From positions 4,278,001 through 4,342,000 of the forward strand of contig NZ_CP043575.1 in the NCBI RefSeq assembly GCF_014076495.1: a stretch of 64,000 nucleotides of DNA. The letters are read 5' to 3'. Below, one piece after another: positions 1,727-58,427 of this stretch. The translations under genes and the position numbers were made by a program. How positions within the stretch are numbered: the first letter of the stretch is position 1; every line of letters begins with the position of its first letter. This DNA comes from Comamonas koreensis. Lineage in GTDB: Bacteria; Pseudomonadota; Gammaproteobacteria; Burkholderiales; Burkholderiaceae_C. The notes under the pieces are model-generated. The model was given only the letters and a program-made list of their open reading frames with translations. It was not told the origin of the DNA and did not search any database.

Positions 1727-1823
1727 ATGCGTGTCACCGGCGCGCAGCGGCATCCCCCACGCCTCTCAAAAACCCCAGAATGTCTCGGGGAAAGTGCGAC
1801 CCAAAGCACTGCGAAAGCAATGC

Positions 1824-1856
1824 TATGATCCGGCAAAATTTGTATGATAACCATAC
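1824..1856 (+). promoter_or_regulatory. Candidate promoter -10 element and palindromic operator before the threonate operon
   Basis: TATGAT occurs twice, at 1824-1829 and 1843-1848; either could be a -10 element, but neither has a convincing -35. The second lies inside an imperfect palindrome, gtatg-ataac-catac (1842-1856), a plausible repressor site about 65 bases before the GntP start. The rest of the 1627-1920 gap shows only the catalase terminator and an untranslated leader. That this site serves the RpiR or another regulator is inference. Confidence 0.35.
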
Positions 1857-1920
1857 TAGTCTCCTGTACTTCTAGGGTCTCAGGAGTTCTTCTAACGAGT
1901 CAACGAGACAAGTCCTTCAC

Positions 1921-3285: not shown

Positions 3286-3385
3286 TCCGCAGCCTCGCTT
3301 GCCGCTTGGCTATTTGTCACTTGCATTCTTGTGCCCCGGCCCCCGGCCGGGCATTCTCTATCTCTGATTCACGGGAGCATCTCCA

Positions 3386-4309
3386 ATGACTACACAAGCA
3401 CAGCACGCCAAGGTGGGCGTCATCGGCCTGGGCGCGATGGGCCTGGGCATTGCCCAAACCTTGCGCAACCGGGGCTACCAGGTCCATGTCTGCGATGTGC
3501 GCCCTGGCGCTGCGGCCGACTTTGCCAGCGCCGGCGGCGTGGCCTGCGCGCACCCGGCCGAGCTGGCCGCCCAGGTCGACGTGGTGGTGTCGGTCGTCGT
3601 CAACGCCGCGCAGACCGAGGCCGTGCTGTTTGGCGAGCATGGCGCCGCTGCCGCCATGCGCCCCGGCAGCACCTTTGTGATGTGCTCCACCGTGGACCCG
3701 AACTGGTCGATCGCGCTGGAGGCGCGCCTGGCCCAGAGCGGCGTGCTGTATGTCGATGGCCCGATCTCCGGTGGCGCGGCCAAGGCGGCAGCGGGCCAGA
3801 TGACGATGATGACCTCGGCCACCCCAGCGGCGTATGCGGCCGCGGGCGATGTGCTCGATGCGATGGCTGGCAAGGTCTACCGCCTGGGCGACAGGGCGGG
3901 CGCGGGCAGCAAGGTCAAGATCATCAACCAACTGCTGGCAGGGGTCCACATTGCCGCAGCGGCCGAGGCCATGGCCCTGGGCCTGCGCGAAGGCGTGGAT
4001 GCTGCGGCGATCTACGAGGTCATCACCCACAGCGCGGGCAACAGCTGGATGTTTGAAAACCGCATGGCCCACGTGCTGGCGGGCGATTACACGCCACTGT
4101 CGGCCGTCGATATCTTTGTGAAGGACCTGGGCCTGGTGCTCGATACCGCGCGCGCCAGCAAGTTTCCGCTGCCGCTGGCGGCCACTGCGCACCAGATGTT
4201 CATGCAGGCATCGACTGCCGGCTACGCCAAGGAAGATGACAGCGCCGTGATCAAGATCTTCCCCGGCATCACCCTCCCCCAAGCTGCCAACGACGGAGGC
4301 CAGCGATGA
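3386..4309 (+). CDS. ltnD: L-threonate 2-dehydrogenase (NAD-dependent beta-hydroxyacid dehydrogenase family)
   Basis: A 307-residue member of the 3-hydroxyisobutyrate dehydrogenase family. The N-terminal Rossmann motif GLGAMG is at residues 14-19, the substrate-binding motif DGPISGG at 124-130, and the catalytic Lys within GSKVKIIN is at 178. In the known pathway this enzyme oxidises the C2 hydroxyl of the acid sugar to 2-oxo-tetronate. The assignment to LtnD rather than tartronate-semialdehyde reductase rests on the neighbours: its stop overlaps the otnK start by four bases and otnC and otnI follow. A GGGAG ribosome-binding site precedes the ATG. Whether L-threonate or D-erythronate is the preferred substrate cannot be read from sequence. 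Confidence 0.88.
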   Translation: MTTQAQHAKVGVIGLGAMGLGIAQTLRNRGYQVHVCDVRPGAAADFASAGGVACAHPAELAAQVDVVVSVVVNAAQTEAVLFGEHGAAAAMRPGSTFVMCSTVDPNWSIALEARLAQSGVLYVDGPISGGAAKAAAGQMTMMTSATPAAYAAAGDVLDAMAGKVYRLGDRAGAGSKVKIINQLLAGVHIAAAAEAMALGLREGVDAAAIYEVITHSAGNSWMFENRMAHVLAGDYTPLSAVDIFVKDLGLVLDTARASKFPLPLAATAHQMFMQASTAGYAKEDDSAVIKIFPGITLPQAANDGGQR

Positions 4310-7251: not shown

Positions 7252-8097
7252 ATGCGACCACCAGCGACCGAATCCTTTTTGCAGCGGGTGCGCCAGCACC
7301 TGCAGGCACTGCCCGCCACCGAGCGGCAACTGGCCGACTTTGTGCTGGAGTTCCCCGGCGAGCTGGCCAGCTATGCCGGCAATGAGCTGGCCCAACTGGC
7401 AAAGGTGTCGCCCTCGACGGTAAGCCGCTTTATCCGGCGCCTCGGCTATGAGAACTACGAAGAAGCGCGCCGCCAGGTGCGTGAGGACAAGCAAAGCGGC
7501 TCGCCGCTGTTCCAGTCGGCCACCGAGGCGTTCCAGCGCGGGCAGATGCTGGCCACGCACCGCGAGCGCTCGCTCGCCAACCTGATCAACACCCTGGACC
7601 AGCTCAGTGAGCCGCAGCTGAGCGAGATCGTGCAGGCCATCATCGCCGCGCGCCAGGTGCTCATCTTTGGCAGCCGCAGCAGCCACGCGTTTGCGCAGTA
7701 CCTGCGCTGGCAGATCATCCAGGTGGTGCCCCAGGTCATCAGCCTGCCCGGCCCCGGCGAAACGCTGGCCGAGTACACCGCCAGCCTCAACAAAAACGAC
7801 TGCGTCATCATCTTTGGCATGCGCCGCCAGACCCGCCAGATGGCCGCACTGCTGGCCACTGCCAGCAAGGCCGGCGCTGCTGTGCTGCTGGTCAGCGACC
7901 AGGCCTCCCCCCACTACGCCGCTGCCACCTGGTCCATCCAGTGCGACTGCCATGGCTCAGGCCTTTTGGACAACCATGTGGCCGTGATGGCCGTCTGCGA
8001 CCTGCTGGCTACCATGGTGCTGGAGGCAGCCGGCGCGCCGGGCCGCAAGCGCCTGGCGGCCATTGAGCAGCAGCATGAGCAGCACCAGGAGTTTTGA
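7252..8097 (+). CDS. MurR/RpiR-family transcriptional regulator
   Basis: A 281-residue protein with an N-terminal RpiR-type helix-turn-helix (about residues 8-80, including LAKVSPSTVSRFIRRLGY) and a C-terminal SIS sugar-isomerase fold (about 125-260, including the SRSSHAFA loop) that would sense a phosphosugar. It lies 89 bases downstream of otnI on the same strand, so it is probably the local regulator of the acid-sugar operon. The natural ligand would be a pathway phosphate such as 3-oxo-tetronate 4-phosphate; that is inference. It is the last gene before the base composition changes. Confidence 0.88.
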   Translation: MRPPATESFLQRVRQHLQALPATERQLADFVLEFPGELASYAGNELAQLAKVSPSTVSRFIRRLGYENYEEARRQVREDKQSGSPLFQSATEAFQRGQMLATHRERSLANLINTLDQLSEPQLSEIVQAIIAARQVLIFGSRSSHAFAQYLRWQIIQVVPQVISLPGPGETLAEYTASLNKNDCVIIFGMRRQTRQMAALLATASKAGAAVLLVSDQASPHYAAATWSIQCDCHGSGLLDNHVAVMAVCDLLATMVLEAAGAPGRKRLAAIEQQHEQHQEF

Positions 8098-8104
8098 TGG
8101 CTTG

Positions 8105-8121
8105 CAGGACGCTCCTGTTTT
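8105..8121 (+). terminator. Short hairpin with T run after the RpiR gene
   Basis: Arms cagga (8105-8109) and tcctg (8113-8117) enclose a three-base loop, followed by four T residues. The stem is short, so it is a weak terminator candidate, but it sits eight bases after the regulator stop. Confidence 0.35.
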
Positions 8122-8225
8122 GTGCAGCAGCCGCTAGGGCGTCGTACTGTTTGCGACCAACAACACAGTTTTGCAGCTGGATGCCAGAAACAAGGTGACC
8201 TTACCTGGCCACCGCGGAGGCGGGT

Positions 8226-8483
8226 ATGGTTCGCGGACCCTATGTTGGCGCGGAAACACGCATGCCTTCAGGTCTCATTTTTCCGGGTTACATGGCCGGC
8301 GGTTTTGCGTTTGCTGTGTTCTGTGGCGATGAGACAGTGAAATTCAACCTGAACATGAAACGCGAAGGACAGGAAACAGAGGCCCGTCTAGCTCGACATC
8401 TGGGCGTGCTCGAAGAGCAGATTTTTCCAATAACCTACACGATCTACGATGGATGGACTGCCAAGTACGATAGGTACTGGTAA
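8226..8483 (+). CDS. Hypothetical protein, 85 residues, possibly a remnant
   Basis: I do not recognise this protein. It begins MVRGPYVGAE and ends with the aromatic-rich stretch YDGWTAKYDRYW. There is a hydrophobic patch near residues 17-33 and a charged middle (KREGQETEARLARH). No ribosome-binding site is obvious, and the open frame begins only ten codons upstream after a stop, so it could be the 3' end of a decayed gene. It lies at the left margin of the accessory island and is followed 51 bases later by the NYN gene. Confidence 0.45.
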   Translation: MVRGPYVGAETRMPSGLIFPGYMAGGFAFAVFCGDETVKFNLNMKREGQETEARLARHLGVLEEQIFPITYTIYDGWTAKYDRYW

Positions 8484-8534
8484 CGGCCAATAGCTAACTC
8501 TGGTTTTTATTTTTCTATATGAAGGTGTTCTGAG

Positions 8535-9239
8535 ATGACCGATACGGCAAGACTCGCGGTTCTAATTGATGCTGACAACGCCTCAAGTTCTGTGGCGAGG
8601 GAAGTACTAGAGGAAGTTACCAAGTACGGCATCGCGACAGTTAAGCGCGCCTTCGGTGATTGGACGACGCAAAATCTTGTTGGATGGAAGGCACATCTTC
8701 ACAAACACGCGATTCAACCTATTCAGCAGTTTTCTTATACCCAAGGCAAGAACTCAACCGATTCCGCATTCATCATCGACGCGATGGACCTGCTGTACGC
8801 GGGAAACGTAGATGGCTTTTGCCTTGTCTCAAGTGATAGTGACTTCACAAGACTTGCAACTCGCTTGCGCGAAGCAGGTAAGGTTGTTTATGGCATGGGT
8901 GAGCGAAAAACTCCGGAGCCGTTCATTGCCGCGTGCGACAAGTTCATTTTTTTCGAGGTTTTAAAGGCTACCGCAGAACCAACAGCCCATGCAAAAGTCG
9001 CCGACGTCCCTGACCTGAAGGAGCTACTTGTTCACGCAATTCGAGAAACCACACGCGATAGCGGATGGTCCCGACTAGCAACCGTGGGTAGCCTATTAGG
9101 AAAGACGCATACCTCGTTCGATCCACGTAACTACGGCTTTAAAAAGCTTAGCGACTTGGTTCGCACGCAGTCTTACCTTGAAGTCAGAGATGCTCCAGAC
9201 TCAACCGAATTTGTGCACGTTGAGCTTCGGCTAAAGTAG
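8535..9239 (+). CDS. NYN-domain ribonuclease-like protein with C-terminal LOTUS/OST-HTH domain
   Basis: A 234-residue, two-domain protein. Residues 5-145 form a NYN (PIN-like) nuclease fold: the first strand ends in LIDADN (acidic residues D12 and D14), then K72-N73-S-x-D76, D82, and the signature SSDSDF at 99-104. Residues 158-232 fit a LOTUS/OST-HTH module (LLVHAIRET, GFKKLSDLV), which binds RNA in other proteins. The combination suggests an RNA-directed nuclease, but no target is evident. An AAGG sequence lies ten bases before the ATG. Base composition is more AT-rich than the flanking operons, and it has no partner gene of known type, so it looks acquired. Confidence 0.88.
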   Translation: MTDTARLAVLIDADNASSSVAREVLEEVTKYGIATVKRAFGDWTTQNLVGWKAHLHKHAIQPIQQFSYTQGKNSTDSAFIIDAMDLLYAGNVDGFCLVSSDSDFTRLATRLREAGKVVYGMGERKTPEPFIAACDKFIFFEVLKATAEPTAHAKVADVPDLKELLVHAIRETTRDSGWSRLATVGSLLGKTHTSFDPRNYGFKKLSDLVRTQSYLEVRDAPDSTEFVHVELRLK

Positions 9240-9389
9240 TTAGATTTACGACGCCACAATCGGCAAGAAGCCCACAATGCAAGAGCAAATGAATAAGCAA
9301 GTCTGCAGCTAATTTTCTTGCGGTGGTGGTCTAGTCCTCCAGCCAGAAGCTGACAACCAATATGACATGCGCTGACGAGGTATTCAATC

Positions 9390-9821
9390 ATGAAAGATTT
9401 ACGCATTTCAACCGACAAGAAAGAGCTGGATATCCTTTTGATTCACAGCTTTCTTTCCACTGAAACTCCGTGGGCCAAGAATATCCCACTGAAATTATTG
9501 CGCAAAGCAATTGACAACTCTCTATGCTTTGGGGGCTATATAGAAAATCGACAAGTAGCATTTTGTCGCGTCATCACGGATAGCGCGACATTTGCCAATC
9601 TTGTTGATGTTTTCGTTATTCCTGAATGCCGGGGGAACGGCTATAGTAAAGCTCTAATGAGAGCTGTTTTATCTCATCCTCTACTTCAGGGGCTACGGCG
9701 TTTCACTTTAGCCACCAGCAACGCCCATGGCTTATATAAGGAATATGGATTTACATCCCCGCTATATCCAGATACATATATGGAACGATACTCTCCAAAT
9801 ATATATAATTCAAAAAACTGA
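9390..9821 (+). CDS. GNAT-family N-acetyltransferase
   Basis: A 143-residue acetyltransferase. The acetyl-CoA pyrophosphate-binding motif A is visible as VIPECRGNGYS (R81-G-N-G-Y85), and the C-terminal part has the LYKEYGF motif typical of small GNAT proteins. The substrate is unknown. The gene is strikingly AT-rich compared with the rest of the window, supporting recent transfer. The ATG is preceded by GAGG about ten bases upstream. The 150-base gap before it and 125-base gap after it hold no further gene. Confidence 0.85.
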   Translation: MKDLRISTDKKELDILLIHSFLSTETPWAKNIPLKLLRKAIDNSLCFGGYIENRQVAFCRVITDSATFANLVDVFVIPECRGNGYSKALMRAVLSHPLLQGLRRFTLATSNAHGLYKEYGFTSPLYPDTYMERYSPNIYNSKN

Positions 9822-9946
9822 GCGGCGTATTCAATATCTGCTGAGCGTCGGTCTGCGACGTTAGCACATCGGCAATTTACAGTCTGCCGACTGCGATCTA
9901 ACATTCAGAAAAAAATACTCCGCTAACACTAGCGCAAGGCTCTACT

Positions 9947-10279
9947 TTGAAAATTCGATGCCTCTGTGGTTCGTTCATTGTTGATGGTACGGACTGCTTA
10001 CCCAACAAAGCACACATAACGCCTGATCAAGGCTGGCTCGATGTGTTTGACACTCTCGATAGTGCAATCATTGATTCAATTTTCAGCGGCAAATTAAGCA
10101 AAGACGATGCATACATGCACGCAAGAAAAATAGTCCAGACGCCAGCCCGCACGATGTGGCAATGTGGATCTTGTGGAAGGTTGTTCATTGATTCTCAGGA
10201 TGGCTCGCAGCAGTGTTTTTCGCCCGAAAATCCAGAGAAGGGAAAGAGCATCCTTGCTTTAAAAAAAGATAGCATTTAG
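9947..10279 (+). CDS. Small hypothetical protein with a four-cysteine, zinc-ribbon-like arrangement
   Basis: 110 residues starting at TTG, chosen because CAAGG lies about nine bases upstream and the first residues (MKIRCLCG) already carry the motif. Cysteines C5 and C7 at the N-terminus and C73-x-x-C76 (WQCGSCGRLF) near the middle could bind one zinc ion. The part between (residues 25-65) looks helical. I do not recognise the family. Such proteins often occur singly in genomic islands, and no role can be assigned here. Confidence 0.65.
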   Translation: MKIRCLCGSFIVDGTDCLPNKAHITPDQGWLDVFDTLDSAIIDSIFSGKLSKDDAYMHARKIVQTPARTMWQCGSCGRLFIDSQDGSQQCFSPENPEKGKSILALKKDSI

Positions 10280-10693
10280 CTAGTCAGAACGCATGACTAC
10301 TGTAGGTCGTTCAGAGACAGTCAAAAGCCCCTTCAAACCGTTCGCACGAACACTGTCACTCAGCAGGCCAGTCGCTACAACTCTGGGGCTACGGTGATTG
10401 CACCCTGACGCAACCAGCCCTCACCTCATGGATCGCAGCCTCTCTCTTCGTGGCTCCCTACGCCGCCGGCGCAGCAGCTAGCTGCACCCTTGCTTTGAGA
10501 AAACCACCACCACCGCCCTGTTCCCCGATACCGAGATAGATGGCACGTTGCTTGCTTTGTCTGGCTGGTGCATGAAATTTCAATTTCATATGCACCATAT
10601 TAGTGAAATACCTATACCAAACTTCGATGAACTGCCCAACACTGGCGCAGCGATCCGAATCGAGCAAGCACGACTCTTCTCAAGGAGCTTTCA
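10280..10693. other. 414-base gene-free stretch at the right margin of the accessory island
   Basis: No credible coding region is present: short open frames here lack start signals and coding bias. The notable item is the 32-base inverted repeat at 10566-10597. AAGGAG at 10682-10687 is the ribosome-binding site of the MFS gene. The first 200 bases show nothing I can interpret. Confidence 0.6.
10566..10597 (+). promoter_or_regulatory. Imperfect inverted repeat, candidate operator before the MFS permease gene
   Basis: Two nested arms face each other: outer tggtgc with gcacca and inner atgaaat with atttcat around a ttca centre, offset by an extra AT on the right side. It is AT-rich within GC-rich surroundings, lies 97 bases before the MFS start and has no T tract, so a protein-binding site is likelier than a terminator. 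The cognate regulator is not evident in the window. Confidence 0.45.
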
Positions 10694-12121
10694 ATGGCTG
10701 GTGGACCTGCACTTTCCTCTGCACCCGACTCTCCCAAGGTGGCCGAACTCGACCAGGCCCTGGATAAGATTGGGGTGACCCGCTCGCACCACACGATCAT
10801 CTTTTTGATCCTGATTGGCTGCCTGTTTGACAGCTTCGAGCAGAACGCGGTCGGCATCATCGGGCCCATGCTCAAGGAGCAATGGGGGTTGACGGCGTCG
10901 GACATCGGCATGCTCAACTCGGTGACCTTTGCCTGCGCGGCGATTGGCCGCATCGTGTCGGGCTATATCGCAGACCGCTATGGCCGGCGCGTGATGCTGA
11001 CGGTGGACCTGCTGCTGTTCACGATTGGTGCGGGCATCTGCGCGATGGCGCCCAATCTGGCGGTGATGGCGCTGGGCCGGGCGGTGGTGGGCTTTGGCCT
11101 GGGGGGTGAGATTGCGATTGCGGTCACCATGCTGTCCGAGTTCTGCTCGTCCAAGTTCCGGGGCACAGCGGTCGGTCTGGTCAATGTGGGCGCGGGCGGG
11201 CTGGGCAATTTTCTGGCACCCGCCTTTGGCCTCTTGGTGTTCTGGATCTTCCCCGGCGACAACGGCTGGCGCTGGCTCTTTGTCTGCCTGATGGTGCCGG
11301 CGCTGCTGGCTGCGTTCTACCGCCGCTATATCCCCGAGACGCCACGTTTTCTGCTGTCGCAAGGCCGCATTGCCGAGACCAATGCCGTGCTGACGCGCCT
11401 GGCATCGGGCAAGCTGGCGGGCGCCGCGCAAGCCGCCCATCCCTATATCAGCGATGACGGCGCCAGCACCACGGCGGCCAAAATCAAGGTGCGCATCACC
11501 GAGATTTTCCGGGGCGCGCTCGGCCGCCGCACGGTGCCGCTGTGCATTACCATCTGGATGACCTATGGCGCGCAGATTTCGGTGCTGACCTTGATGCCGA
11601 CGATTCTGGTGGGCCTGGGCTACAGCATGTCCAAGAGCCTGCTGTTCACGATGGTGATGCAAAGCGGCAGCCTGTTGGGCGCGATTGCGGCATCAGCGCT
11701 GGGCTTTCACTTTCCGCGCAAACGGGTGCTGACCGCCGGCGCCATCTGCGCCTGCCTGGCGGCGCTCACGATTGGCTTTGCCGCCAAGAGCATTGTGGTG
11801 CTGCTGATTGCTGGGGCTACCTTCCAGTTCTTTGTGCTGCTGCTCAACACTACTATCTGGATCTATGCGCCCGAGCTCTACCCCACCCGTGTGCGCGCCT
11901 TTGGCACCGCCTTCATCCTCGCCACCGGCACGGCCGCCGGTGCGCTGATGCCGCTGGTAGCCGGCCGTCTGTTTGATGGTTTTGGCCTGGGCGGCGTGTT
12001 TGGCCTGGCCGCTGCGATGTACCTGATTTTCATCATCAGCGTGCAATGCGTGCCCGAGACCTATGGCCGCTCCCCCGATGCCGAGCCGCTGGCTGGCACG
12101 CCTGCCACGGCCCAATCCTAG
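10694..12121 (+). CDS. MFS transporter (sugar/organic-acid porter type)
   Basis: A 475-residue major facilitator protein with twelve predicted membrane helices. The loop 2-3 signature is present as GYIADRYGRR (about residue 95), and PETPRFL follows helix 6. A strong AAGGAG ribosome-binding site lies six bases before the ATG. The next gene, an Asp/Glu/hydantoin racemase-like protein, starts nine bases after the stop, so the pair probably handles one substrate, perhaps a hydantoin, ureide or amino-acid derivative. The substrate is not determinable from motifs. Confidence 0.87.
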   Translation: MAGGPALSSAPDSPKVAELDQALDKIGVTRSHHTIIFLILIGCLFDSFEQNAVGIIGPMLKEQWGLTASDIGMLNSVTFACAAIGRIVSGYIADRYGRRVMLTVDLLLFTIGAGICAMAPNLAVMALGRAVVGFGLGGEIAIAVTMLSEFCSSKFRGTAVGLVNVGAGGLGNFLAPAFGLLVFWIFPGDNGWRWLFVCLMVPALLAAFYRRYIPETPRFLLSQGRIAETNAVLTRLASGKLAGAAQAAHPYISDDGASTTAAKIKVRITEIFRGALGRRTVPLCITIWMTYGAQISVLTLMPTILVGLGYSMSKSLLFTMVMQSGSLLGAIAASALGFHFPRKRVLTAGAICACLAALTIGFAAKSIVVLLIAGATFQFFVLLLNTTIWIYAPELYPTRVRAFGTAFILATGTAAGALMPLVAGRLFDGFGLGGVFGLAAAMYLIFIISVQCVPETYGRSPDAEPLAGTPATAQS

Positions 12122-46651: not shown

Positions 46652-47944
46652 ATGACTAAGACACGTTATCTCACTGGTATCACCCCTTCGGGAACGCCCC
46701 ACCTGGGCAACTACGCTGGCATGATGCGCCCGGCCATCGCTGCCAGCCGCGCAGGCGATGTGGAGAACTTCTACTTTCTGGCCGACTACCACGCGCTGAT
46801 CAAGTGCCAGGATCCCGAGCGCGTCAACCGCTCGACGCTGGAGATTGCCGCCAGCTGGCTGGCCGCAGGCCTGAACCCCGAGCACGTCACCTTCTACCGC
46901 CAGTCGGACATCCCCGAGATTCCCGAGCTGACCTGGTTTCTGACCTGCGTTACCGGCAAGGGCGTGCTCAACCGGGCTCACGCCTACAAGGCCGCGCAGG
47001 ACAAGAATGCCGAAACCGGCAAGGACGGCGATGACGGCGTGACTGCGGGCCTGTTCATGTACCCGGTGCTGATGGGCGCTGACATCCTGGCCTTCAACGC
47101 CAACAAGGTGCCGGTGGGCCGCGACCAGATCCAGCACATCGAGATGGCGCGCGACATGGCATCGAGCTTCAACCACCTGTATGGCGAGCATTTCGTGCTG
47201 CCCGAGGCGGCGGTGGACAACAACGTGGCGACCTTGGCCGGCCTTGACGGCCGCAAGATGAGCAAGAGCTACGACAACACGATCCCGCTGTTCTCCACCC
47301 AGGCCCAGCTCAAGAAGCTGATCGGCAGCATCGTCACCGACTCGCGTGCACCGGGCGAGCCCAAGGACGTGGAAGGCTCGGCGCTGTTCCAGATCTACCA
47401 GGCCTTTGCCAGCGCAGAGGAAACCGCAGCCCTGCGCCAGGCCTATGCCGATGGCATTGGCTGGGGCGAGGCCAAGACCCTGCTGTTCGAATGCATTGAC
47501 CGGGAGCTCGCCCCGTTGCGTGAACGCTACAACTACCTGATGGCCCATCCCCAGGAAGTGGAAGCTATTTTGCAAAGCGGCGCACAAAAGGCGCGTGCAT
47601 ATTCGGGCCCTTTACTACACAAGTTACGTGCGGCTGTTGGCCTGCGGCCACTGACGCCAGCCAGCACGGCCGCTACGCCCAAGGCTGCGGCCAAGCAAGG
47701 CGGCGCTGCTTTCAAGCAGTACCGCGACAAGGACGGCAAGTTCTATTTCAAACTGGTGCGCGCCGATGGCGGGCTGCTGCTGCAAAGCCAGGGCTTTGAT
47801 GCCCCCCGGGATGCGGGCGCCATGATTGCCCATTTGCAGGCTGCGCCGCAGAATCTGCAAGACGCCATGGACAACCTGCAATTGGGCGACGGCTTTTCGC
47901 TGTCGGATGTGCAGTTGGCGTTGAAAGAGATAGCCGAGAGTTAA
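46652..47944 (+). CDS. trpS: Tryptophan--tRNA ligase with a C-terminal extension
   Basis: 430 residues. The class I signature TPSGTPHLGNY (11-21, HxGN at 17-20) and GRKMSKS (KMSKS at 202-206) are intact, so the synthetase should be active. Most bacterial TrpS proteins end near 340 residues. Here an Ala-rich linker leads into an extra domain (about 350-430) with AFKQYRDKDGKFYFKLV and LLLQSQGF, resembling the DUF1508/YegP fold that often binds nothing known. This extension is probably a lineage trait of Burkholderiales. Confidence 0.93.
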   Translation: MTKTRYLTGITPSGTPHLGNYAGMMRPAIAASRAGDVENFYFLADYHALIKCQDPERVNRSTLEIAASWLAAGLNPEHVTFYRQSDIPEIPELTWFLTCVTGKGVLNRAHAYKAAQDKNAETGKDGDDGVTAGLFMYPVLMGADILAFNANKVPVGRDQIQHIEMARDMASSFNHLYGEHFVLPEAAVDNNVATLAGLDGRKMSKSYDNTIPLFSTQAQLKKLIGSIVTDSRAPGEPKDVEGSALFQIYQAFASAEETAALRQAYADGIGWGEAKTLLFECIDRELAPLRERYNYLMAHPQEVEAILQSGAQKARAYSGPLLHKLRAAVGLRPLTPASTAATPKAAAKQGGAAFKQYRDKDGKFYFKLVRADGGLLLQSQGFDAPRDAGAMIAHLQAAPQNLQDAMDNLQLGDGFSLSDVQLALKEIAES

Positions 47945-48040
47945 GAGACTGCCTATACTGCATTTGCAACCAATTGTTGAAGCTGTCACCGTCGTGGCAA
48001 TTTCCCCGTTTAACGCAGTGTGGAGCCGGTGATTCAATTT

Positions 48041-48083
48041 GCTTTTATTATTGAGCTATCAAATAAAAGCAAGCTATTGAGCT
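48041..48083 (+). promoter_or_regulatory. Hairpin and direct repeats before the response-regulator gene
   Basis: A stem of gcttttatt (48041-48049) and aataaaagc (48062-48070) overlaps a direct repeat tattgagct at 48049-48057 and 48075-48083, spaced 26 bases. Direct repeats of this kind suit OmpR-type regulators, and the site lies only 18 bases before the start codon. It could equally be a translational control hairpin or a scattered intergenic repeat. Confidence 0.4.
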
Positions 48084-48101
48084 TAGTGGGAGTGAGCTGT
48101 T

Positions 48102-48809
48102 ATGAGAATTGTGGCACTGGATGATGATCTGGTGGTGTTGGATATGCTCTCCAAAACCATGGAGGCGGAGGGCCACGCCTGTACAACCCATTCCTCTGGC
48201 GCCTCTCTGATCAAGGACATGCGCCGCGAGACCTATGACCTGCTGATCCTGGACTGGCAGCTGCCAGACACCACGGGTCCGCAGGTGGTGCGCTGGATAC
48301 GAGAGAACGTCAACCAGGAGTTGCCGGTGCTCTTCATCACCAGCCGCCATGGTGAGGCCGACATTGTTGAGGGGTTGGAGTCTGGCGCGGACGATTTCAT
48401 GATCAAGCCGCTGCGGGTGGCCGAGTTGGTGGCGCGCGTGCGCGCGTTGCTGCGCCGCGCCTACCCGGCTGCCACCAAGGGCGTATTGGAGTTTGGCCGC
48501 TACAAGTTCCTCTCCGATTCGCGGGCCCTGGAGGTCGATGGCAAGCTGGTCGAGCTGAAGAACCGCGAGTACGACCTTGCGCTGTTCCTGTTTCAGAACA
48601 TGGGCCGCCTGCTGTCGCGCGACCATTTGCGCGAAATCATCTGGGGCCAGAACTCCGATGTCATCTCGCGCTCGCTCGATACCCATGTATCGCGGCTGCG
48701 CACGCTGCTCGATCTGCGACCGGAGAACGGTTTCATCATCACGGCAGTCTATGGCGTCGGCTACCGGTTTGAGGCCGTCAAACCGCTGTCCGAGACGCAG
48801 CCTGAATAA
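48102..48809 (+). CDS. OmpR-family response regulator
   Basis: 235 residues. The receiver domain has the acidic pair at D8/D9, phosphorylation site D51 (LILDWQLPD) and a KP motif. The C-terminal winged helix (about 135-230) includes SRALEVDG, RDHLRE and RSLDTHVSRLR. It should be phosphorylated by the CHASE2 kinase encoded two genes downstream on the same strand. GGGAG lies before the ATG. Confidence 0.92.
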   Translation: MRIVALDDDLVVLDMLSKTMEAEGHACTTHSSGASLIKDMRRETYDLLILDWQLPDTTGPQVVRWIRENVNQELPVLFITSRHGEADIVEGLESGADDFMIKPLRVAELVARVRALLRRAYPAATKGVLEFGRYKFLSDSRALEVDGKLVELKNREYDLALFLFQNMGRLLSRDHLREIIWGQNSDVISRSLDTHVSRLRTLLDLRPENGFIITAVYGVGYRFEAVKPLSETQPE

Positions 48810-48929
48810 ATTTCTGCTGTTGCATGCAGCGCGGTTTACGGCCAACACGCCACACGTGTTGGCCGTATTTACTCTGCCGCATGCAGCGGCCCTGCCAGGC
48901 ACCATGGCCTGGCTGTAAGGAGAGCCATT

Positions 48930-50633
48930 TTGTATCTTTCTCGTCTGCCGTTTTCTGCTGCCGTTTTGCTGGCCTTTGGCGTGGCCGCCCCTGGTCTCGC
49001 GCTGGCGGCATCGGCAGACCAGTTGCCCGACATCCGCCACACGGTGATCAGCGGTGACACGCTCGAGGCCGTGGCCAAGCGCTACCTGAAGGACCCGCAG
49101 CAGTGGCGCGCCGTGGGCACGCTCAATGGCGTCAAGGACCCTTTGCGCCTGCCCATTGGCTCGGTGATCGTCATCCCCGCGCACATGGTGGGCTACCAGG
49201 AGGTGACGATCAGCCACGTCAAGGGCGTGGCGCGCGTGCGCTCGCCGCTGGCCGGTGGCGACTGGCAAAGTGCAGCTTCGGGCACCATCTTGACCGAGGG
49301 CGACGAGCTGCAGGTGCCGGCTGGCAGCTTTGTGACCTTGCGCTTTGCCGATGGCAGCTCGGTGCGCATCAACGAAAACTCCGAACTCAAACTGAGCGAA
49401 TTGCGCAAGAACAGCCGCACCGAGGAGCAGCAGTCGGTGCTGGACCTGAGCCGCGGCGGGCTGGAGTCGCATGTCACGCCGGTGATGGACCAGCGCCGCA
49501 AACGCAAGTTCGAGATCAAGACCCCGATGGCCACCACCAGCGTGCGCGGCACCGTGTTCTCCGTCAGCATTTCCGACTCCGGCAAGGCCATCACCGCTGT
49601 CGACAAAGGGGTGGTCGAGGTCCAGGGCCGCCAGGCGGCGCAGCAGGCGCGCGTACAGGCTGGCCAAGGGGTGGCCGTGGCCCGCAGCGGCCAGGTCGGG
49701 CCCACGGTGGCACTGCTGCCAGCGCCCAGCCTGCAGGCCAATCCGCCAGTGTTTGAGGACGCTAATTTTCTGACTTTGCAGGTGGGCGAGGTGCCACAGG
49801 CCCAGAAATACGGTGTGATTCTGGCCCTGGATCCAGAGCTCGCGCGCGTGGTGCTTCAGCAAAGCCATTCCAGCCCCACGTTCAAGTTCGACGCCATTGC
49901 CGATGGCACCTACTACATGAGCGCCCGGGCCATCGATGGCCAGGACATCCCGGGCACACCGGCAGTCCAGACCATCAAGGTCAAGGCTACACCGGTGCCT
50001 CCGCTCTACGCCAACCCGGCCCCCGGCGGCCTCATTGGCCTGGCGGACGGCGAGCTGCTGTGCACCGAAGGCGGCCCGGGCATTGTGGGCTACCGCATCC
50101 AGGTCGCTGCCAGCCAGGACTTCAGCACCCCGCTACAAGACAGCGGCGTCGTCGATAACTGCCAGGCCAGTGCGTCCGGTTTGGGCGTGGGTTCCTATTT
50201 CTGGCGCGTGGCCAGTGTGCGCAGGCTCGCCGATGGCAGCCTGGACCAGGGCCCGTTTGCACAGCCCCAGGCTTTCAAGACCGGCAGCAACCCGCCGACC
50301 CTGGGCGCCGACGCCTTAAGCCCTGCCGAGTCCAACAACCCCAACCAGCTGCAGTTGTCCTGGCCTGCTGAAGCCGGTCAGCGCTTCAACCTGCAGCTGG
50401 CCTCTGATGACAGCTTCACCGATGCCCGCACCTTCGCGCTCGATACCCCGCAATGGGCATCGGACAGCCTGCCCCCGGGTGACTACTATGTGCGCATCCA
50501 GGTGCTGGACCCGTCCGGCCTCAAGAGCCGCTACTCGGCCCCGCGCAAGCTGCCCGTCGAGCCGGCGATTCTGACCGGTGCTGGTGGCGTGCTCAAAACC
50601 GGTGACGGCAAATCGGTGCTCAGCCCGAGGTAA
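48930..50633 (+). CDS. Secreted LysM-FecR domain protein
   Basis: 567 residues from TTG 48930, supported by AAGGAG seven bases upstream. A signal peptide ends near ALAAS (24-28). Residues about 35-85 form a LysM peptidoglycan-binding module (HTVISGDTLEAVAKRYL). About 100-225 is a FecR-type beta domain (KTPMATTSVRGTVF). The remaining 300 residues contain beta-rich repeats of fibronectin-like type. It has no membrane helix and no sigma partner, so it is a cell-wall-associated periplasmic protein. It lies between the regulator and the CHASE2 kinase and is probably part of their sensing input. Confidence 0.85.
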   Translation: MYLSRLPFSAAVLLAFGVAAPGLALAASADQLPDIRHTVISGDTLEAVAKRYLKDPQQWRAVGTLNGVKDPLRLPIGSVIVIPAHMVGYQEVTISHVKGVARVRSPLAGGDWQSAASGTILTEGDELQVPAGSFVTLRFADGSSVRINENSELKLSELRKNSRTEEQQSVLDLSRGGLESHVTPVMDQRRKRKFEIKTPMATTSVRGTVFSVSISDSGKAITAVDKGVVEVQGRQAAQQARVQAGQGVAVARSGQVGPTVALLPAPSLQANPPVFEDANFLTLQVGEVPQAQKYGVILALDPELARVVLQQSHSSPTFKFDAIADGTYYMSARAIDGQDIPGTPAVQTIKVKATPVPPLYANPAPGGLIGLADGELLCTEGGPGIVGYRIQVAASQDFSTPLQDSGVVDNCQASASGLGVGSYFWRVASVRRLADGSLDQGPFAQPQAFKTGSNPPTLGADALSPAESNNPNQLQLSWPAEAGQRFNLQLASDDSFTDARTFALDTPQWASDSLPPGDYYVRIQVLDPSGLKSRYSAPRKLPVEPAILTGAGGVLKTGDGKSVLSPR

Positions 50634-50695
50634 GGGGCACGGCGGCCCCTGCCCATGCGCATGACCGCGTTGACCCCCCGTCCATTCCCTAGCGC

Positions 50696-53041
50696 ATGGC
50701 TGCCCCTTCCTTTTCGCTGAGCCGAACGCAACTGCGCTGGCTGGAATGGCTGGCGCTGTCGGCCCTGCTGCTGGGCCTGGTGGCCTGGGCCAGCCTGCGC
50801 GAGCAGCCCCGCGTCATCAACACCTTTGTGCAGGACATCACCGGCTGGCTCAGCGCACCGGATCCGCGCGATGACATCGTCATCGTCGCCATTGATGATG
50901 CCAGCCTGCAAAGCGTGGGGCGCTGGCCCTGGAGCCGCGCCGTGCATGCGCAGCTGATCGCACGCATTGCCGCCCAGCACCCCAAAGCCTTGGGCGTGGA
51001 CGTGCTGTTCAGCGAGCCCGACAGGCAGCACCCCGACGACGATGCCCAACTGGCCCAGGCGATTGCCCAGGCCGGCAATGTCGTGCTGCCGGTGGACTGG
51101 CGCATGGCCAATGTGGACATTGGCGCCGAGCTGCCGCTGGCCAGCCTGCGCCAAGCCGCGCGCCAGCTGGGCCATGTGAATGTGACTGTCGACGATGACG
51201 GCGTGATACGCCGCTACTTTGGTGCGCAGGGTGAGAACACCGGGCCCTGGCCCCACTTCAGCATTGCGATGCTCTGCGCCAGCGGCCAGAGCCACCCGCT
51301 GTGCCAGGGCACCCGCCCGCCCGAGCCCGGCGAGCAGTGGGAGCAGCGCTCGCCGGAGATGTTCAACTTTGCCCGCGGTGACCGGCCCTACACGCTGTAT
51401 TCGGCCGAAGATGTGCTGGCCGGGCGTATCCCCGAAGACAGCTTTCGCGGCAAGTATGTGCTGCTGGGGGCTACGGCCTCGGGCCTGGGCGACTACTTTG
51501 CCAGCCCCGCCCGGCCCGCATCCCGGCATATTGCAGGGGTGGAGCTGATTGCCCATGCGCTGGACTCGCAGCTGTCGGACCAGCATGTGCATGCGCTGCC
51601 GACCGGCGCCAATCTGGCAGTCAATCTGGGAGCGATCGTGCTGGCCCTGATGGCGATTGCGCTGCTGGGCCCCATGGCAGGTTTGATCGCCCAGATTGCC
51701 GCGGCAGCGCTGCTGCTGCTGCTGTGCCTGGCGCTGCGCAGCTTTGCCGGCCTGCAACTGGCGCCCGGCGCGGCCCTGGTGGGCCTGTTGGTCATCTACC
51801 CCATCTGGAGCTGGCGGCGCCTGAGTGCAGCGGCCCGGTTTTTGCAGCAGGAGATGCACAACCTGCGCGCCGCGCTCGATACCACCAGCGCCCCGCAGCG
51901 CAGCGGCATGCTGATGGATGACTTTCTGGAGCGGCGCATCAAGGCCGTGGAGACCGCTACCGACACCTTGCGCCAGATGCATGGCTTTGTGCGCGATACG
52001 CTGCGCCAGATCCCCTCGCCCACCTTTGTGGTCGATCCGCTGGGCATGGTCAGCCTGCACAATGCTGCAGCGGTGCGCTACCTGCAAAACCTGGGCATGC
52101 CCAGCCAGGGCCTGATCGCGATCCAGTCGGCGCTGAGCGGCATGCGCATCAAGGATTCGGGCCAGGTGCTGTCCTTTGCCAATGCCGAGCAGCTGCGCGC
52201 GCTGCCGGCCGAATGCGAGGTGCTGGACCGCGAAGAACATGCCTGGCTGCTGCTGGCCGAGGCCTTCCGCGCGCCAGCGCCTGCGGGCTGGCTGCTGATG
52301 CTGGTGGACCTGACCGAGCTGCACAAGGCCCAGCAGCAGCGCGACCAGGCGCTGCGCTTTATCTCGCATGATTTCCGCTCGCCCCAGTCCTCGATCATCA
52401 CCTTGCTGGAGATGTACAAGGAGTTCCCCGGCCAGATGAGCGAGGCCGAGCTGCACCAGAAGATCAACCGCCTGGCCCACCAATCGCTGGAGATGGCCGA
52501 GAGCTTTGTGCAGTTGGCCTCGGCCCAGTCGCAGGCCATGCAGCCCCAGTTGCTCAGCCTCGATGTGCTGCTGCAGGAGGCGGTGGACGACTGCTGGGCC
52601 AAGGCCTCGGAGAAAAAGATCCAGGTGCGCTACCTGCCCGGGGCCCTGGAGGCGGCCGAAACCGATATCGCCTGCTTTGGCGACCGCTCCTTGCTGCAGC
52701 GCTGCTTTGTCAACCTGCTCAGCAACGCCATCAAGTACAGTCCCAGCGGCACGGCGGTGGAGGCCAGCATTGCCGATGATGGCGCGTACTGGCGGGTGGA
52801 GGTGCGCGACCAGGGCTTTGGCATGACGCAGGAGCAGTTGAACCAGCTCTTCCAGCCCTTCCAGCGCTTTCACCACAACAGCCAGCCGCAGATCTCGGGC
52901 ATTGGCCTGGGCCTGAGCTTTGTGCAAACCGTGGTGCTGCGCCACCAGGGTTTTGTCCATGTGACCAGCGGCGTCAACGAGGGCTCGTGCTTCAGCCTGC
53001 ATTTGCCCAAGGCGCCGGGCACGCAGCAGGAGCCGCGCTAG
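50696..53041 (+). CDS. CHASE2-domain sensor histidine kinase
   Basis: 781 residues. One N-terminal membrane helix (about 18-36), an extracytoplasmic CHASE2 domain (about 40-310), then three clustered helices (about 310-375), a PAS-like region (about 420-520) and a kinase core. The H-box is FISHDFRSP with phospho-acceptor H558, the N-box LLSNAIKYS, and the G-boxes RDQGFGM and GIGLGLSF. A stop codon two codons upstream fixes ATG 50696. It presumably phosphorylates the regulator at 48102. The ligand is unknown; the LysM-FecR protein is the obvious candidate partner. Confidence 0.92.
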   Translation: MAAPSFSLSRTQLRWLEWLALSALLLGLVAWASLREQPRVINTFVQDITGWLSAPDPRDDIVIVAIDDASLQSVGRWPWSRAVHAQLIARIAAQHPKALGVDVLFSEPDRQHPDDDAQLAQAIAQAGNVVLPVDWRMANVDIGAELPLASLRQAARQLGHVNVTVDDDGVIRRYFGAQGENTGPWPHFSIAMLCASGQSHPLCQGTRPPEPGEQWEQRSPEMFNFARGDRPYTLYSAEDVLAGRIPEDSFRGKYVLLGATASGLGDYFASPARPASRHIAGVELIAHALDSQLSDQHVHALPTGANLAVNLGAIVLALMAIALLGPMAGLIAQIAAAALLLLLCLALRSFAGLQLAPGAALVGLLVIYPIWSWRRLSAAARFLQQEMHNLRAALDTTSAPQRSGMLMDDFLERRIKAVETATDTLRQMHGFVRDTLRQIPSPTFVVDPLGMVSLHNAAAVRYLQNLGMPSQGLIAIQSALSGMRIKDSGQVLSFANAEQLRALPAECEVLDREEHAWLLLAEAFRAPAPAGWLLMLVDLTELHKAQQQRDQALRFISHDFRSPQSSIITLLEMYKEFPGQMSEAELHQKINRLAHQSLEMAESFVQLASAQSQAMQPQLLSLDVLLQEAVDDCWAKASEKKIQVRYLPGALEAAETDIACFGDRSLLQRCFVNLLSNAIKYSPSGTAVEASIADDGAYWRVEVRDQGFGMTQEQLNQLFQPFQRFHHNSQPQISGIGLGLSFVQTVVLRHQGFVHVTSGVNEGSCFSLHLPKAPGTQQEPR

Positions 53042-53071
53042 CTGGCGCTGTCACAGGCTGGGCGGCAGCGC

Positions 53072-54325
53072 TCAGTGCAGCTCTTTGCCTTTGAGTTCGG
53101 GAATCAACCACACCGTCGCCAACGCATCGAGCACATAGATGGCGGCCAACAGCCCAATGGCCATCTGGAAAGAGTACTGCGCCGCAATCGCGCCAATCAC
53201 CACGGGGCCTGCCCCGCCCACAGCGCGGCCAATGTTGAACAGCACATTCTGCGCGGTGGCGCGTGCTTCTGTCGGGTAGGCCTCGCTCATCAGCGCGCCA
53301 AAGCCGCCCATCATGCCGTTGACGAACATCCCCATCACCGCACCCGCCCAGAGCATGGTGAGCGGATCATTGAGCTGCGAGTAGAACAGCACCATCAGCG
53401 CCGCACCGGCCTGGAACAGCAAAAAGCTGGGCTTGCGGCCGATGCGGTCGGCGAGCTGGCCAAAGATCCAGATGCCAGCCATCATGCCCAGGATGGTGAC
53501 CGCCGTCCACAGCGCGGACTTGGTCAGGTTGAAGCCCAGCTTGTTGGCCAGGAAAGCGGGCATCCAGATCATGATGCCGTAGTAGCCAAAGTTCTGCACC
53601 GAGGTGAGCACGGCAATGCCAACGCTGATGCGGGTGGTGGCGCGGTCCTTGACCAGCAGCTTGAAGCACTGCAGCACCGACTGCTTTTTCTCCTGGCTGC
53701 GCACAAACACCTCGGGCTCATGCAGGCGGTTGCGGATGAACCAGGCCACAAAGGCGGGGATCACCCCCACCAGGAACATGCCGCGCCAGCCGATATGGGG
53801 CAGCAGCAAGGGGGTGAGCAAGGCCGCGCCCAGCACGCCCACCTGCCAGCCCAGCGCCACATAGGACGACACCCGCGCCCGGTAGCGCGCAGGCCAGGCT
53901 TCGGCCGCCAGCGCCATGCCGATGCCGAACTCGCCGCCCAGGCCAATGCCGGCAATGGTGCGGTAGATCAGCAGGTCCCAGTAGCCCTGCGCAAACGCGC
54001 ACAGCCCGGTGAACACCGCAAACAGCACGATGGTCCAGGTCAGCACGCGGATGCGGCCATAGCGGTCGCTGAGCATGCCAAACACAATGCCGCCCAGCAC
54101 TGCGCCGATCAGGGTCCAGGTGACCAGGGAGCCGGCCTGGGCCGTGGTCAGTCCCAGGTCCTCGCGGATGGCGCTGAGCATGAAGCCCAGGATCAGCAGG
54201 TCAAAGCCGTCCATGGCGTAGCCCACGGCCGAGCCGGCCAGGGCCTTCCAGCCATAGCGGTTGACGGTATCGGACGAGGGAGAGGCAGTGCCTGAAGCGG
54301 CAGACCCGGCGGCGGAAGAAGACAT
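53072..54325 (-). CDS. MFS transporter (NanT/AAHS-like)
   Basis: 417 residues with twelve predicted helices. The first helix carries MDGFDLLILGFML and loop 2-3 reads GMLSDRYGRIR, as in aromatic-acid and sialic-acid type H+ symporters. The start ATG 54325 is where homology begins, although the frame is open upstream. It is convergent with the CHASE2 kinase and has no catabolic neighbour, so the substrate is unknown. Confidence 0.85.
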   Translation of the reverse strand: MSSSAAGSAASGTASPSSDTVNRYGWKALAGSAVGYAMDGFDLLILGFMLSAIREDLGLTTAQAGSLVTWTLIGAVLGGIVFGMLSDRYGRIRVLTWTIVLFAVFTGLCAFAQGYWDLLIYRTIAGIGLGGEFGIGMALAAEAWPARYRARVSSYVALGWQVGVLGAALLTPLLLPHIGWRGMFLVGVIPAFVAWFIRNRLHEPEVFVRSQEKKQSVLQCFKLLVKDRATTRISVGIAVLTSVQNFGYYGIMIWMPAFLANKLGFNLTKSALWTAVTILGMMAGIWIFGQLADRIGRKPSFLLFQAGAALMVLFYSQLNDPLTMLWAGAVMGMFVNGMMGGFGALMSEAYPTEARATAQNVLFNIGRAVGGAGPVVIGAIAAQYSFQMAIGLLAAIYVLDALATVWLIPELKGKELH

Positions 54326-56526: not shown

Positions 56527-57366
56527 TTATGCGGCCGGGGCGTCGGGCTTGGGCGGGGCCTGATGGCCAGCCTCAGGCTCTGGCGCTGGCGGCAAGGTGT
56601 CGCTCACCGGGTCTTCGGATTCAAAGCGCTCGGCACCGGGCATCTCCCACTCCATCGCCACGGCCGTGACGTTGTCGCTGGTCGCCCCCGCCTTGCGCAG
56701 CGCGGCATCGATCAGGTCGGGAATGGCGCGCGAGACCGACTTGTTGGCCAGCTCGCGGGCAATCACGGTCTCGGAGACGCTGCTCCAGAGGCCGTCGGAG
56801 CACAGCATGATGCGGTCGCTGCGGTGCATCTCGGTGGGGCCGGCCACATCGAAGAACGGACGCGAGGGGCTGCCCAGGCAGGTGAACAGCACATTGCGGT
56901 TGAAGCGGTCGGGGTTGATGCTGGTCACGCCCGAGCCGCGCAGCTCCATATAGGAGTGGTCGCGCGTGCGCGCCAGCACCTTGCCGCTGCGCACCAGGTA
57001 GAGGCGCGAGTCGCCGCAATGCACCCACCAGATATTGCCATCCTGCACCACCGAGGCCACCAAGGTGGTGCGTGGCGGGTCATCCATATTGTTGGCAATC
57101 GCGTACTTGAGGATGTTGTGGTGCGCCGAGAGCAGCGCGTTCTCAAGGAACTCGGCCGGGTCTTCCAGCTTGGGGCGCGCGAGGCGCTGAAAATCCAGCG
57201 ACACCGTCTGCAAGGCCAGTTGCGCGGCCACTTCCCCTTCCGGATGCCCTCCCATGCCATCGGCCACGACAAACAGACAGGCTTCCTTGGTATAGCTATA
57301 CCCCATCCTGTCTTCGTTTTTTTCCCGCCCGCCCTTGCGGCTGAGCTGGAAGACCGAGAACTTCAT
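56527..57366 (-). CDS. PP2C-family serine/threonine phosphatase
   Basis: 279 residues. The metal-binding motifs are EKNEDR (E18, D19), VVADGMGGHPEG (D36), CSDGLWSSVSE and DNVTAVAM, all intact. A short Pro/Glu-rich tail follows the catalytic domain. It would reverse phosphorylation by the kinase gene just upstream; its ATG overlaps the kinase stop by four bases. Confidence 0.92.
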   Translation of the reverse strand: MKFSVFQLSRKGGREKNEDRMGYSYTKEACLFVVADGMGGHPEGEVAAQLALQTVSLDFQRLARPKLEDPAEFLENALLSAHHNILKYAIANNMDDPPRTTLVASVVQDGNIWWVHCGDSRLYLVRSGKVLARTRDHSYMELRGSGVTSINPDRFNRNVLFTCLGSPSRPFFDVAGPTEMHRSDRIMLCSDGLWSSVSETVIARELANKSVSRAIPDLIDAALRKAGATSDNVTAVAMEWEMPGAERFESEDPVSDTLPPAPEPEAGHQAPPKPDAPAA

Positions 57367-58355
57367 TTGGTTTGGCCTCCGCCCACGCGCTTTTTGGTAT
57401 CGCTGACCAGCGAATCAATCGACATACGAACCTTCTCGGAGACGCTCAGTTTGGTATAGCGGCGCTCGTCTTCGCGCGCCAGCTCTTTTTGTAATAGGAA
57501 CACCGATTGGGGCCGGGCCTGGGGGTCAAGCGCCATGCACCACTCCACCAGCTCGATCAGGTTGTCCGAGTACACGCCGCGCACCTTGGACATGGCCAGG
57601 CTCAGGCGGTCCTTTTCCTGGCGCTTGGGCGCATCGTTGGGCGGAATACCCTGCATGCAGGCATAGATGCAGGCACCGATCGCATAGATGTCGGTCCAGG
57701 GGCCCAGCGACATATCGCGGCGGTACATCTCGGGCGCGGCAAAACCGGGCGTGTACATGGGGCGGACAAAGTTGCCCTCCTTGCTCAGCACCTCGCGGGC
57801 AGCGCCAAAGTCGATCATCACCGCCTTGTTGTCGTCGGTGATGAAGATGTTGGCCGGCTTGATATCGAGGTGAAGCATCTTGTGCTGGTGCACGATGCGC
57901 AGACCGCGCAGCACCTCGTCGAACAGCGAGCGGATCGTGGACTCGCGGAAGACCTTGGCTTCCTTGAGATCGCGGGCGGTGACGACAAAATCCTGCAAGG
58001 TGGCCCCTTGCAGGTAGTTCATCACCATGTAGACGGTGTCGTTCTCGCGGAAGAAGTTGTATACGCTGACGACCGAGGAGTGCGAGATCTGGGCGAGCGC
58101 GCGGCCCTCTTCAAAGAAACTCTTGAGGCCCAGGCGGTACAGCGACAGCTTGTCGGGCTCGATGCTCGGCGACAGCGACCCCGGCGCACGGGTGGCCAGG
58201 CTGGACGGCAAATACTCCTTGATGGCGACCTGCTGGCCATCGGGCGCCAGCGCCAGATAGACCACCCCGAACCCCCCCGCCGATATGCGCCGCACGATCC
58301 GGTAGCCACCGATGACGGTATTGGCTGGTAGCGGCGCAGGCTTTACTTTTGACAT
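57363..58355 (-). CDS. Soluble serine/threonine protein kinase (Hanks type)
   Basis: 330 residues with a complete kinase domain: glycine loop SAGGFGVV (25-32), catalytic Lys in VAIKEY (K46), HLDIKPAN (D164, K166, N169) and DFG (D182-G184). Because it reads HLD rather than HRD, it belongs to the non-RD type. There is no membrane segment or extracellular domain, so it is cytoplasmic. ATG 58355 is used because homology starts there. It forms a pair with the PP2C gene and is divergent from yicC. Confidence 0.9.
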   Translation of the reverse strand: MSKVKPAPLPANTVIGGYRIVRRISAGGFGVVYLALAPDGQQVAIKEYLPSSLATRAPGSLSPSIEPDKLSLYRLGLKSFFEEGRALAQISHSSVVSVYNFFRENDTVYMVMNYLQGATLQDFVVTARDLKEAKVFRESTIRSLFDEVLRGLRIVHQHKMLHLDIKPANIFITDDNKAVMIDFGAAREVLSKEGNFVRPMYTPGFAAPEMYRRDMSLGPWTDIYAIGACIYACMQGIPPNDAPKRQEKDRLSLAMSKVRGVYSDNLIELVEWCMALDPQARPQSVFLLQKELAREDERRYTKLSVSEKVRMSIDSLVSDTKKRVGGGQTK

Positions 58356-58427
58356 AGTTTGATGAACAACGCAGGTATATGAGAAGCCTGATAATGAGCG
58401 CGATTGCAAGCAACCTCATACAGTCCT

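Follow-up and report, generated by a model that had tools for sequence, protein, structure and literature searches.

A 64,000-nucleotide stretch of the Comamonas koreensis genome (contig NZ_CP043575.1, positions 4,278,001 to 4,342,000; hereafter, the window) carries three consecutive genes for an OmpR/PhoB-type response regulator (RR), a secreted LysM-FecR protein, and a CHASE2 sensor histidine kinase. Judged by gene order and domain content, this trio is a system of an already known type, the BiofilmReg operon of Burkholderia contaminans (Voronina et al., 2016; PMC5192318). The less known part, which is worth following, is the pair of FecR and CHASE2, which outlives changes of the output domain. 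Because FecR and CHASE2 remain constant while outputs vary, FecR appears to belong with the periplasmic CHASE2 part of the receptor rather than with the kinase or the regulator. The pairing favors a role for FecR as a partner of CHASE2 in the periplasm, although not in every case.

FecR and CHASE2 across output domains

According to Pfam, a FecR gene adjoins a CHASE2 gene with the histidine kinase output in the window and in locus L122, and with the hybrid kinase output in L177 (kinase plus receiver) and in L178 and L208 (plus receiver and Hpt). The same neighborhood is observed for the GGDEF output (L153 and L164), the GGDEF-EAL output (L112, L158, and L180), and the class III cyclase output (L040, L086, L088, L094, and L098). 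For another CHASE2 protein with the class III cyclase output (L125), FecR lies 3.9 kb away; L162 contains CHASE2 and no output family by Pfam. A SpoIIE phosphatase output was seen in an Omnitrophota bin (L102, 1578-5069), where a FecR gene is followed by a CHASE2-SpoIIE gene. Separate regulators are located upstream in L165-L174, L183, L201, and L211. In the sampled loci, CHASE2 proteins with GGDEF, GGDEF-EAL, or receiver domains have no detected regulator next to them, and the same holds for the kinases of L175, L176, L182, L184, L202, and L205. A fusion of FecR and CHASE2, suggested by long frames, was rejected: the 1474-residue frame of L112 overlaps the FecR gene, and none of the listed frames gave a match to both models. 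In the literature searched, which leaves most subscription journals outside, no mention was found of a FecR-CHASE2 pairing that spans several types of output.

The pairing was compared with random placement in 40 CHASE2-carrying genomes, 20 from the window's order and 20 from the phylum outside it, chosen before FecR was examined; the comparison took every listed Pfam match, with genome sizes rounded and random placement assumed to be uniform. These genomes hold 115 CHASE2 places and 149 FecR places. FecR lies within 2 kb of CHASE2 in 24 of the 115 cases, whereas 0.47 are expected, an approximately 50-fold excess, and within 5 kb in 37 cases with 1.18 expected. At 2 kb, FecR is upstream on the same strand in 15 cases, downstream on the opposite strand in eight, and downstream on the same strand in one.

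Two further samples were analyzed by output class. The order sample (L105-L124) comprises every fourth rank from 5 to 81 (19 places, rank 69 being dropped as already taken) and rank 78; the phylum sample (L125-L154) comprises 30 hand-picked places from 29 families outside the window's order. Both were drawn from the best-scoring matches listed, which favors cyclases, and together they contain 50 loci and 62 CHASE2 proteins, searched with FecR, LysM, and CHASE2 models built in this study. The same models served for the trio loci and the LysM-FecR relatives described below; they missed CHASE2 in L178 and L208, where Pfam detected it. Further listed places (L155-L164) and loci picked for long frames or known FecR (L185-L200) serve as examples only and were not counted, with the exception of L155, included among the LysM-FecR relatives below. 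Because FecR proximity varies among output classes in the two samples (within 2.5 kb for three of six kinases, two of two GGDEF or GGDEF-EAL proteins, nine of 40 cyclases, and none for the one protein lacking an assigned output), the pairing, though strong, is partial and depends on the output class. Eleven loci of the window's order (L107-L111, L114, L116-L118, L123, and L124) contain a CHASE2-cyclase gene and a CHASE2-Ser/Thr-kinase gene close together on one strand, with starts about 4 kb apart and no FecR within 2.5 kb.

The Comamonas trio and the BiofilmReg operon

All three genes are on the plus strand. The RR gene (48102-48809) encodes 235 residues with the Pfam domains Response_reg (PF00072) and Trans_reg_C (PF00486). 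The LysM-FecR gene (48930-50633) has a TTG start and encodes 567 residues with matches to PF01476 and PF04773. Its product consists of a probable signal peptide (approximately residues 1-26), a LysM domain (residues 37-83; 49038-49178), a FecR domain (residues 126-230; 49305-49619), and about three fibronectin-III-like (FN3) domains (residues 262-548; 49713-50573). The kinase gene (50696-53041; 781 residues) encodes a CHASE2 domain (PF05226, 185.9 bits; residues 41-316; 50816-51643) and a kinase core (52340-53014) of HisKA (residues 549-612, with H558) and HATPase_c (residues 662-773), assigned by Pfam and motif positions; the HisKA match scores below its Pfam cut-off. The order, strand, domains, and coordinates in the original prediction, made from the sequence alone, are borne out by open reading frames and Pfam, and the gaps that it put at about 120 and 60 bases measure 120 and 62 bases.

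In the kinase, a hydrophobic helix (residues 16-34) precedes CHASE2 and later helices (about residues 301-370) overlap its end; a CHASE2 domain beside membrane helices with a cytoplasmic output is the arrangement of CHASE2 receptors. The RR has the phospho-acceptor D51 and K102, and the kinase has H558, N677, D705-G709, and G735-L740, which we take to be the residues that matter for phospho-relay. Because these residues are present in both proteins, both look active. The AlphaFold2 (AF2) model of the kinase has a mean predicted local distance difference test score (pLDDT) of 85.7 and a predicted template modeling score (pTM) of 0.55. A sequence search against solved structures matched the kinase part only, and in the fold comparison the kinase core filled the match list, none of whose listed rows covers residues 41-316; with the list so crowded, no new CHASE2 fold is claimed. 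The trio kinase is the single CHASE2 match in the genome.

The hydropathy scan of the LysM-FecR protein revealed one hydrophobic stretch (residues 8-26), consistent with a signal peptide, and no second one, in agreement with the predicted lack of a membrane helix. Wall binding by this protein may be inferred from its LysM domain. Its AF2 model has a mean pLDDT of 88.9, and by fold comparison the FecR domain has the fold of the PupR periplasmic signaling domain. By eye, a hydrophobic C-terminal tail, lacking in the window protein, is present in 14 of 37 aligned LysM-FecR homologs (rows P0034-P0037, P0040-P0042, P0044-P0047, and P0049-P0051 of alignment A1); a 19-residue scan flagged it in one of the 37 only (P0051).

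The BiofilmReg operon has the same order on one strand, an OmpR-family RR, a LysM-FecR protein called 'PBP', and a CHASE2 histidine kinase, and the authors draw the latter two together in the periplasm (PMC5192318). Most BiofilmReg members have a CreB-type regulator; the window RR scores 163.8 bits with the PhoB model and 147.1 bits with the CreB model, each under its own cut-off. In B. contaminans the LysM-FecR gene begins within the RR gene, whereas in the window a 120-base gap with a strong hairpin separates the two. A DUF4136 gene follows the trio in almost all Burkholderia genomes examined, whereas the next gene in the window is on the other strand and encodes a transporter of the major facilitator superfamily (MFS); this difference is not decisive, and the three-gene form is held to be ancestral (PMC5192318). 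Finally, no orthologs were reported for Comamonadaceae among the 45 genomes of that study, whereas our scan found many. Hence, the sensing system proposed in the original prediction stands as a conserved arrangement, but not as a new one.

To map the trio, one genome per species was scanned with a profile of 13 close LysM-FecR sequences, the 37-homolog profile being too diverse for this purpose. The scan yielded 71 loci. In the 41 closest (L032-L072), an RR match is upstream in 40 and CHASE2 is downstream in 40, the two misses, L049 and L047, being at contig ends; the genes are thus neighbors in related genomes too. Some genes of these loci are cut by contig ends, and the L055 regulator frame has only 150 residues. 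Because the order recurs in 41 loci, it is more than chance. The genera include Comamonas, Acidovorax, Paracidovorax, Delftia, Diaphorobacter, Giesbergeria, Alicycliphilus, Oryzisolibacter, Undibacterium, and others, and the taxonomic range of the trio is thus wider than that given in the 2016 paper (PMC5192318). Among named relatives, Comamonas sp. BIGb0152 has the closest LysM-FecR protein (89 per cent identity). Nine of the 41 loci, all from Acidovorax, contain a second FecR-CHASE2 pair 1.3-1.7 kb from the trio on the opposite strand (L040 at 1-3489, L041, L043, L045, L050, L051, L056, L057, and L063); here CHASE2 comes first and FecR after. Seed matches assign a cyclase output to all nine pairs, and Pfam does so for L040.

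A separate draw of 120 genomes from the window's family gave 37 LysM-FecR matches at E <= 6.9e-37, one of them the window protein, with lower-scoring matches excluded. All 36 others were examined with their flanks, and 35 are decidable, L210 being cut by a contig end. CHASE2 is directly downstream on the same strand in 30 of the 35, which come from other genera of the family. The profile scan also reached 30 distant FecR proteins, mostly from Elusimicrobia (L073-L102), where CHASE2 is beside FecR in six loci (L086, L088, L094, L096, L098, and L102) and not in the other 24, some of them on short contigs.

FecR genes occur near CHASE2 receptor genes in other published systems as well. A Campylobacterota cluster of genes for a CHASE2 adenylate cyclase, a FecR protein, a tetratricopeptide repeat (TPR) protein, and a phosphodiesterase differs from the trio in its cyclic AMP (cAMP) output and other partner genes, LysM being unmentioned in the accessible text (PMC9239204). 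In Sinorhizobium meliloti, the FecR gene smc02177 lies near a CHASE2 cyclase gene at the CyaD1/Clr locus, which has a cyclase and a CRP-type regulator instead of a kinase and an RR, and its mutant keeps signal perception (PMC5498481). In magnetotactic bacteria, the gene of the exported protein MtxA is followed by a CHASE2 cyclase gene, but TPR and Ig-like parts are described for MtxA (PMC4439547). PA4036 appears as a table row only (PMC6605022).

The trio resembles sigma-factor surface signaling of the FecR/PupR type in the FecR domain, both by Pfam and by fold. In FecR anti-sigma proteins, a membrane helix separates a cytoplasmic sigma-binding part from the FecR domain. The window protein, in contrast, has no N-terminal cytoplasmic part or internal membrane helix; LysM precedes FecR, and LysM and FN3 domains are found instead. 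The adjacent genes are those of the RR, the kinase, a tRNA synthetase, and an MFS transporter, and a Pfam scan of the trio and five neighboring genes (eight in all) found no sigma factor, as the original prediction had claimed for the trio.

The hairpin and the surroundings of the trio

The gap between the RR and LysM-FecR genes (48810-48929, plus strand) contains a long, very stable hairpin, not mentioned in the original prediction. The gap folds at -67.6 kcal/mol (z -6.67) and includes an inner terminator-like stem of 13 pairs (48837-48867) with a short T-rich run after it. Compared with shuffled sequences, the gaps of the window and of the five closest named relatives (L032-L036) all fold far better, with z from -3.9 to -6.8, and in L036 the long stem is retained although the letters differ. 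The hairpin was not seen in five Acidovorax gaps (L040, L041, L045, L051, and L063) or in the 43-base gap of another Comamonas locus (L058). It was rejected as a general operon feature, with only L047 (z -3.56) and L122 (z -6.78) below -3 among 17 other gaps, and as a dispersed repeat, the genome containing one full copy and other matches of at most 36 bases. No Rfam match at the gathering score was obtained in 47900-53200, and no plus-strand promoter-like site was found before the RR gene. The simplest reading of the sequence is that the hairpin is possibly an attenuator of the window's subclade, which may make the LysM-FecR and kinase genes less strongly expressed than the RR gene.

Upstream of the trio on the same strand is a Trp/Tyr-type tRNA synthetase gene (tRNA-synt_1b, 46652-47944) with a C-terminal DUF1508 match just above the cut-off (22.7 vs. 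22 bits); the downstream MFS transporter gene is on the opposite strand. Adjoining genes for a PP2C phosphatase and a Ser/Thr protein kinase are on the minus strand at 56527-58409, about 3.5 kb from the trio. Elsewhere in the window, the 8001-12000 region has a low GC fraction (0.539 vs. 0.617-0.677 in the other 4-kb steps). Within it, 9240-10690 has no frame of at least 150 residues and adjoins a 234-residue frame (8535-9239), presumably resembling NYN-type proteins.

Possible roles of the LysM-FecR protein

We give about an even chance to the trio being a three-gene envelope sensor of the BiofilmReg type in which LysM-FecR gates the CHASE2 kinase. The LysM-FecR-FN3 protein would be exported, with its LysM end holding peptidoglycan, and its FecR domain would contact the periplasmic CHASE2 domain. 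This contact would set kinase activity by the state of the wall or by a ligand; the kinase would phosphorylate the OmpR-type RR, and the RR would control surface or biofilm genes. In the window strain and its closest relatives, the hairpin after the RR gene would lower expression of the two downstream genes compared with the RR. The S. meliloti CyaD1 construct lacking CHASE2 makes cAMP constitutively (PMC5498481), which argues that CHASE2 restrains the output there and can be gated, and which fits CHASE2 as an input domain with a restraining role. Also in favor of this reading are the conserved flanking of LysM-FecR by the RR and CHASE2, the pairing across outputs, the PupR-like fold of the FecR domain, and the loss of biofilm upon insertion into the RR gene of the Burkholderia operon. 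Nothing in our analysis points to cell-wall stress, the condition considered in the original prediction, as the signal; what has been published for the Burkholderia operon is a biofilm phenotype.

A number of observations weigh against gating by FecR or against its universality. In the placement test, FecR is absent from the 5 kb around 78 of the 115 CHASE2 places (some are near contig ends). In the two samples, FecR is within 2.5 kb of none of the 13 CHASE2-Ser/Thr kinases, and three of the six kinases lack it at this distance; L143, L146, and L147 are CHASE2 kinases without FecR. Conversely, CHASE2 is missing from the 5-kb flanks of five of the 35 decidable LysM-FecR genes (L209 and L212-L215). 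The frames nearest to these genes on the downstream side have no Pfam match, and in the three loci scanned a MoCF_biosynth gene lies upstream. In B. contaminans, a plasposon insertion in the RR gene abolished biofilm, but this insertion is argued to stop transcription of all four genes, so that the phenotype is that of the operon and of no single gene (PMC5192318). In S. meliloti, loss of smc02177 did not significantly change the plant-signal-dependent smc02177 reporter activated via the CHASE2 cyclases, leaving perception intact (PMC5498481). The functional tie predicted between FecR and CHASE2 is backed by a pairing that persists across outputs and weakened by the dispensability of this S. 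meliloti gene for perception.

Distance correlations were calculated for 50 trio loci with regulators over 200 residues and kinases of 690-900 residues, reduced to 43 by dropping seven near-duplicates. For FecR and CHASE2, the raw correlation is 0.87, equal to that of CHASE2 and PAS within one protein, and the partial correlation is 0.54 after the RR and 0.47 after the RR and the kinase core; the FN tail and the kinase core give -0.03. Adding to the points against gating, the correlation is not specific to CHASE2, as FecR and the cytoplasmic PAS give 0.85 raw and 0.54-0.55 partial. Because these values nearly equal those of FecR and CHASE2, co-evolution was dropped as a proof of contact; the correlation is compatible with direct FecR-CHASE2 contact but does not single it out.

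A rather unlikely alternative, though the most probable of the rivals, is that LysM-FecR acts on the output side, as an effector or structural protein, and not as an input to CHASE2. It would be a surface protein linked to the wall, co-produced with the two-component pair and serving the response, e.g., in matrix or envelope remodeling. LysM with about three FN3 domains looks like an adhesive or scaffold protein, and the five LysM-FecR genes without CHASE2 nearby also agree with such a role. In S. meliloti, SMc02177 is encoded beside smc02178 and near cyaD1 (SMc02176 and SMc02177 being consecutive locus numbers). The gene is activated ex planta by the pathway fed by the CHASE2 cyclases, and it is dispensable for perception but needed for the phenotype: its mutant is hyper-infective, as upon loss of the pathway (PMC5498481). 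By analogy this case fits the effector role, but it does not settle the kinase case, because the output is different and three parallel cyclases make redundancy possible. An effector is also at odds with pairing with CHASE2 across outputs rather than with one regulator, and with the position of the LysM-FecR gene between the RR and kinase genes.

Still less probable is a relay across the envelope in which the FecR protein connects CHASE2, as no more than the inner-membrane end, with a third component in the outer membrane, in the way that FecR-type proteins work with TonB receptors. Binding to outer-membrane receptor domains is a property of FecR/PupR domains, and the FecR domain of the trio shares the fold of the PupR signaling domain. 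Moreover, the S. meliloti CHASE2 cyclases respond via the outer-membrane barrel NsrA (PMC13001267), and the FecR-domain protein of the Campylobacterota cluster mentioned above is an outer-membrane protein (PMC9239204). However, the Pfam scan of eight window genes revealed no outer-membrane receptor family. The weakest explanation, that LysM-FecR is a passenger by shared inheritance or co-expression beside a plain two-component pair, could account for L143, whose CHASE2 kinase has an adjacent regulator and no detected FecR, and for the FecR-less kinases of L146 and L147, but it is highly improbable given that the pairing recurs with different outputs and at about 50 times random placement at 2 kb.

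Returning to gating by FecR, we extend it tentatively, and with somewhat more doubt than belief, to a large class of CHASE2 proteins. FecR proteins may be their dedicated periplasmic co-receptors. CHASE2 would then be gated by a FecR protein that is either secreted or tethered to the wall, and evolution would have connected this portable sensor of two proteins to various outputs (histidine kinase, hybrid kinase, GGDEF(-EAL), cyclase, or SpoIIE), in Pseudomonadota and also outside this phylum. CHASE2 is widespread, being found in 108 of 150 genomes of the window's order, and the factors that it recognizes have been called unknown (PMC5192318). If the extension is true, FecR would gain a second, sigma-independent role and CHASE2 would gain a general protein partner; with FecR as this partner, the input of many kinases, cyclic di-GMP enzymes, and cyclases would become testable.

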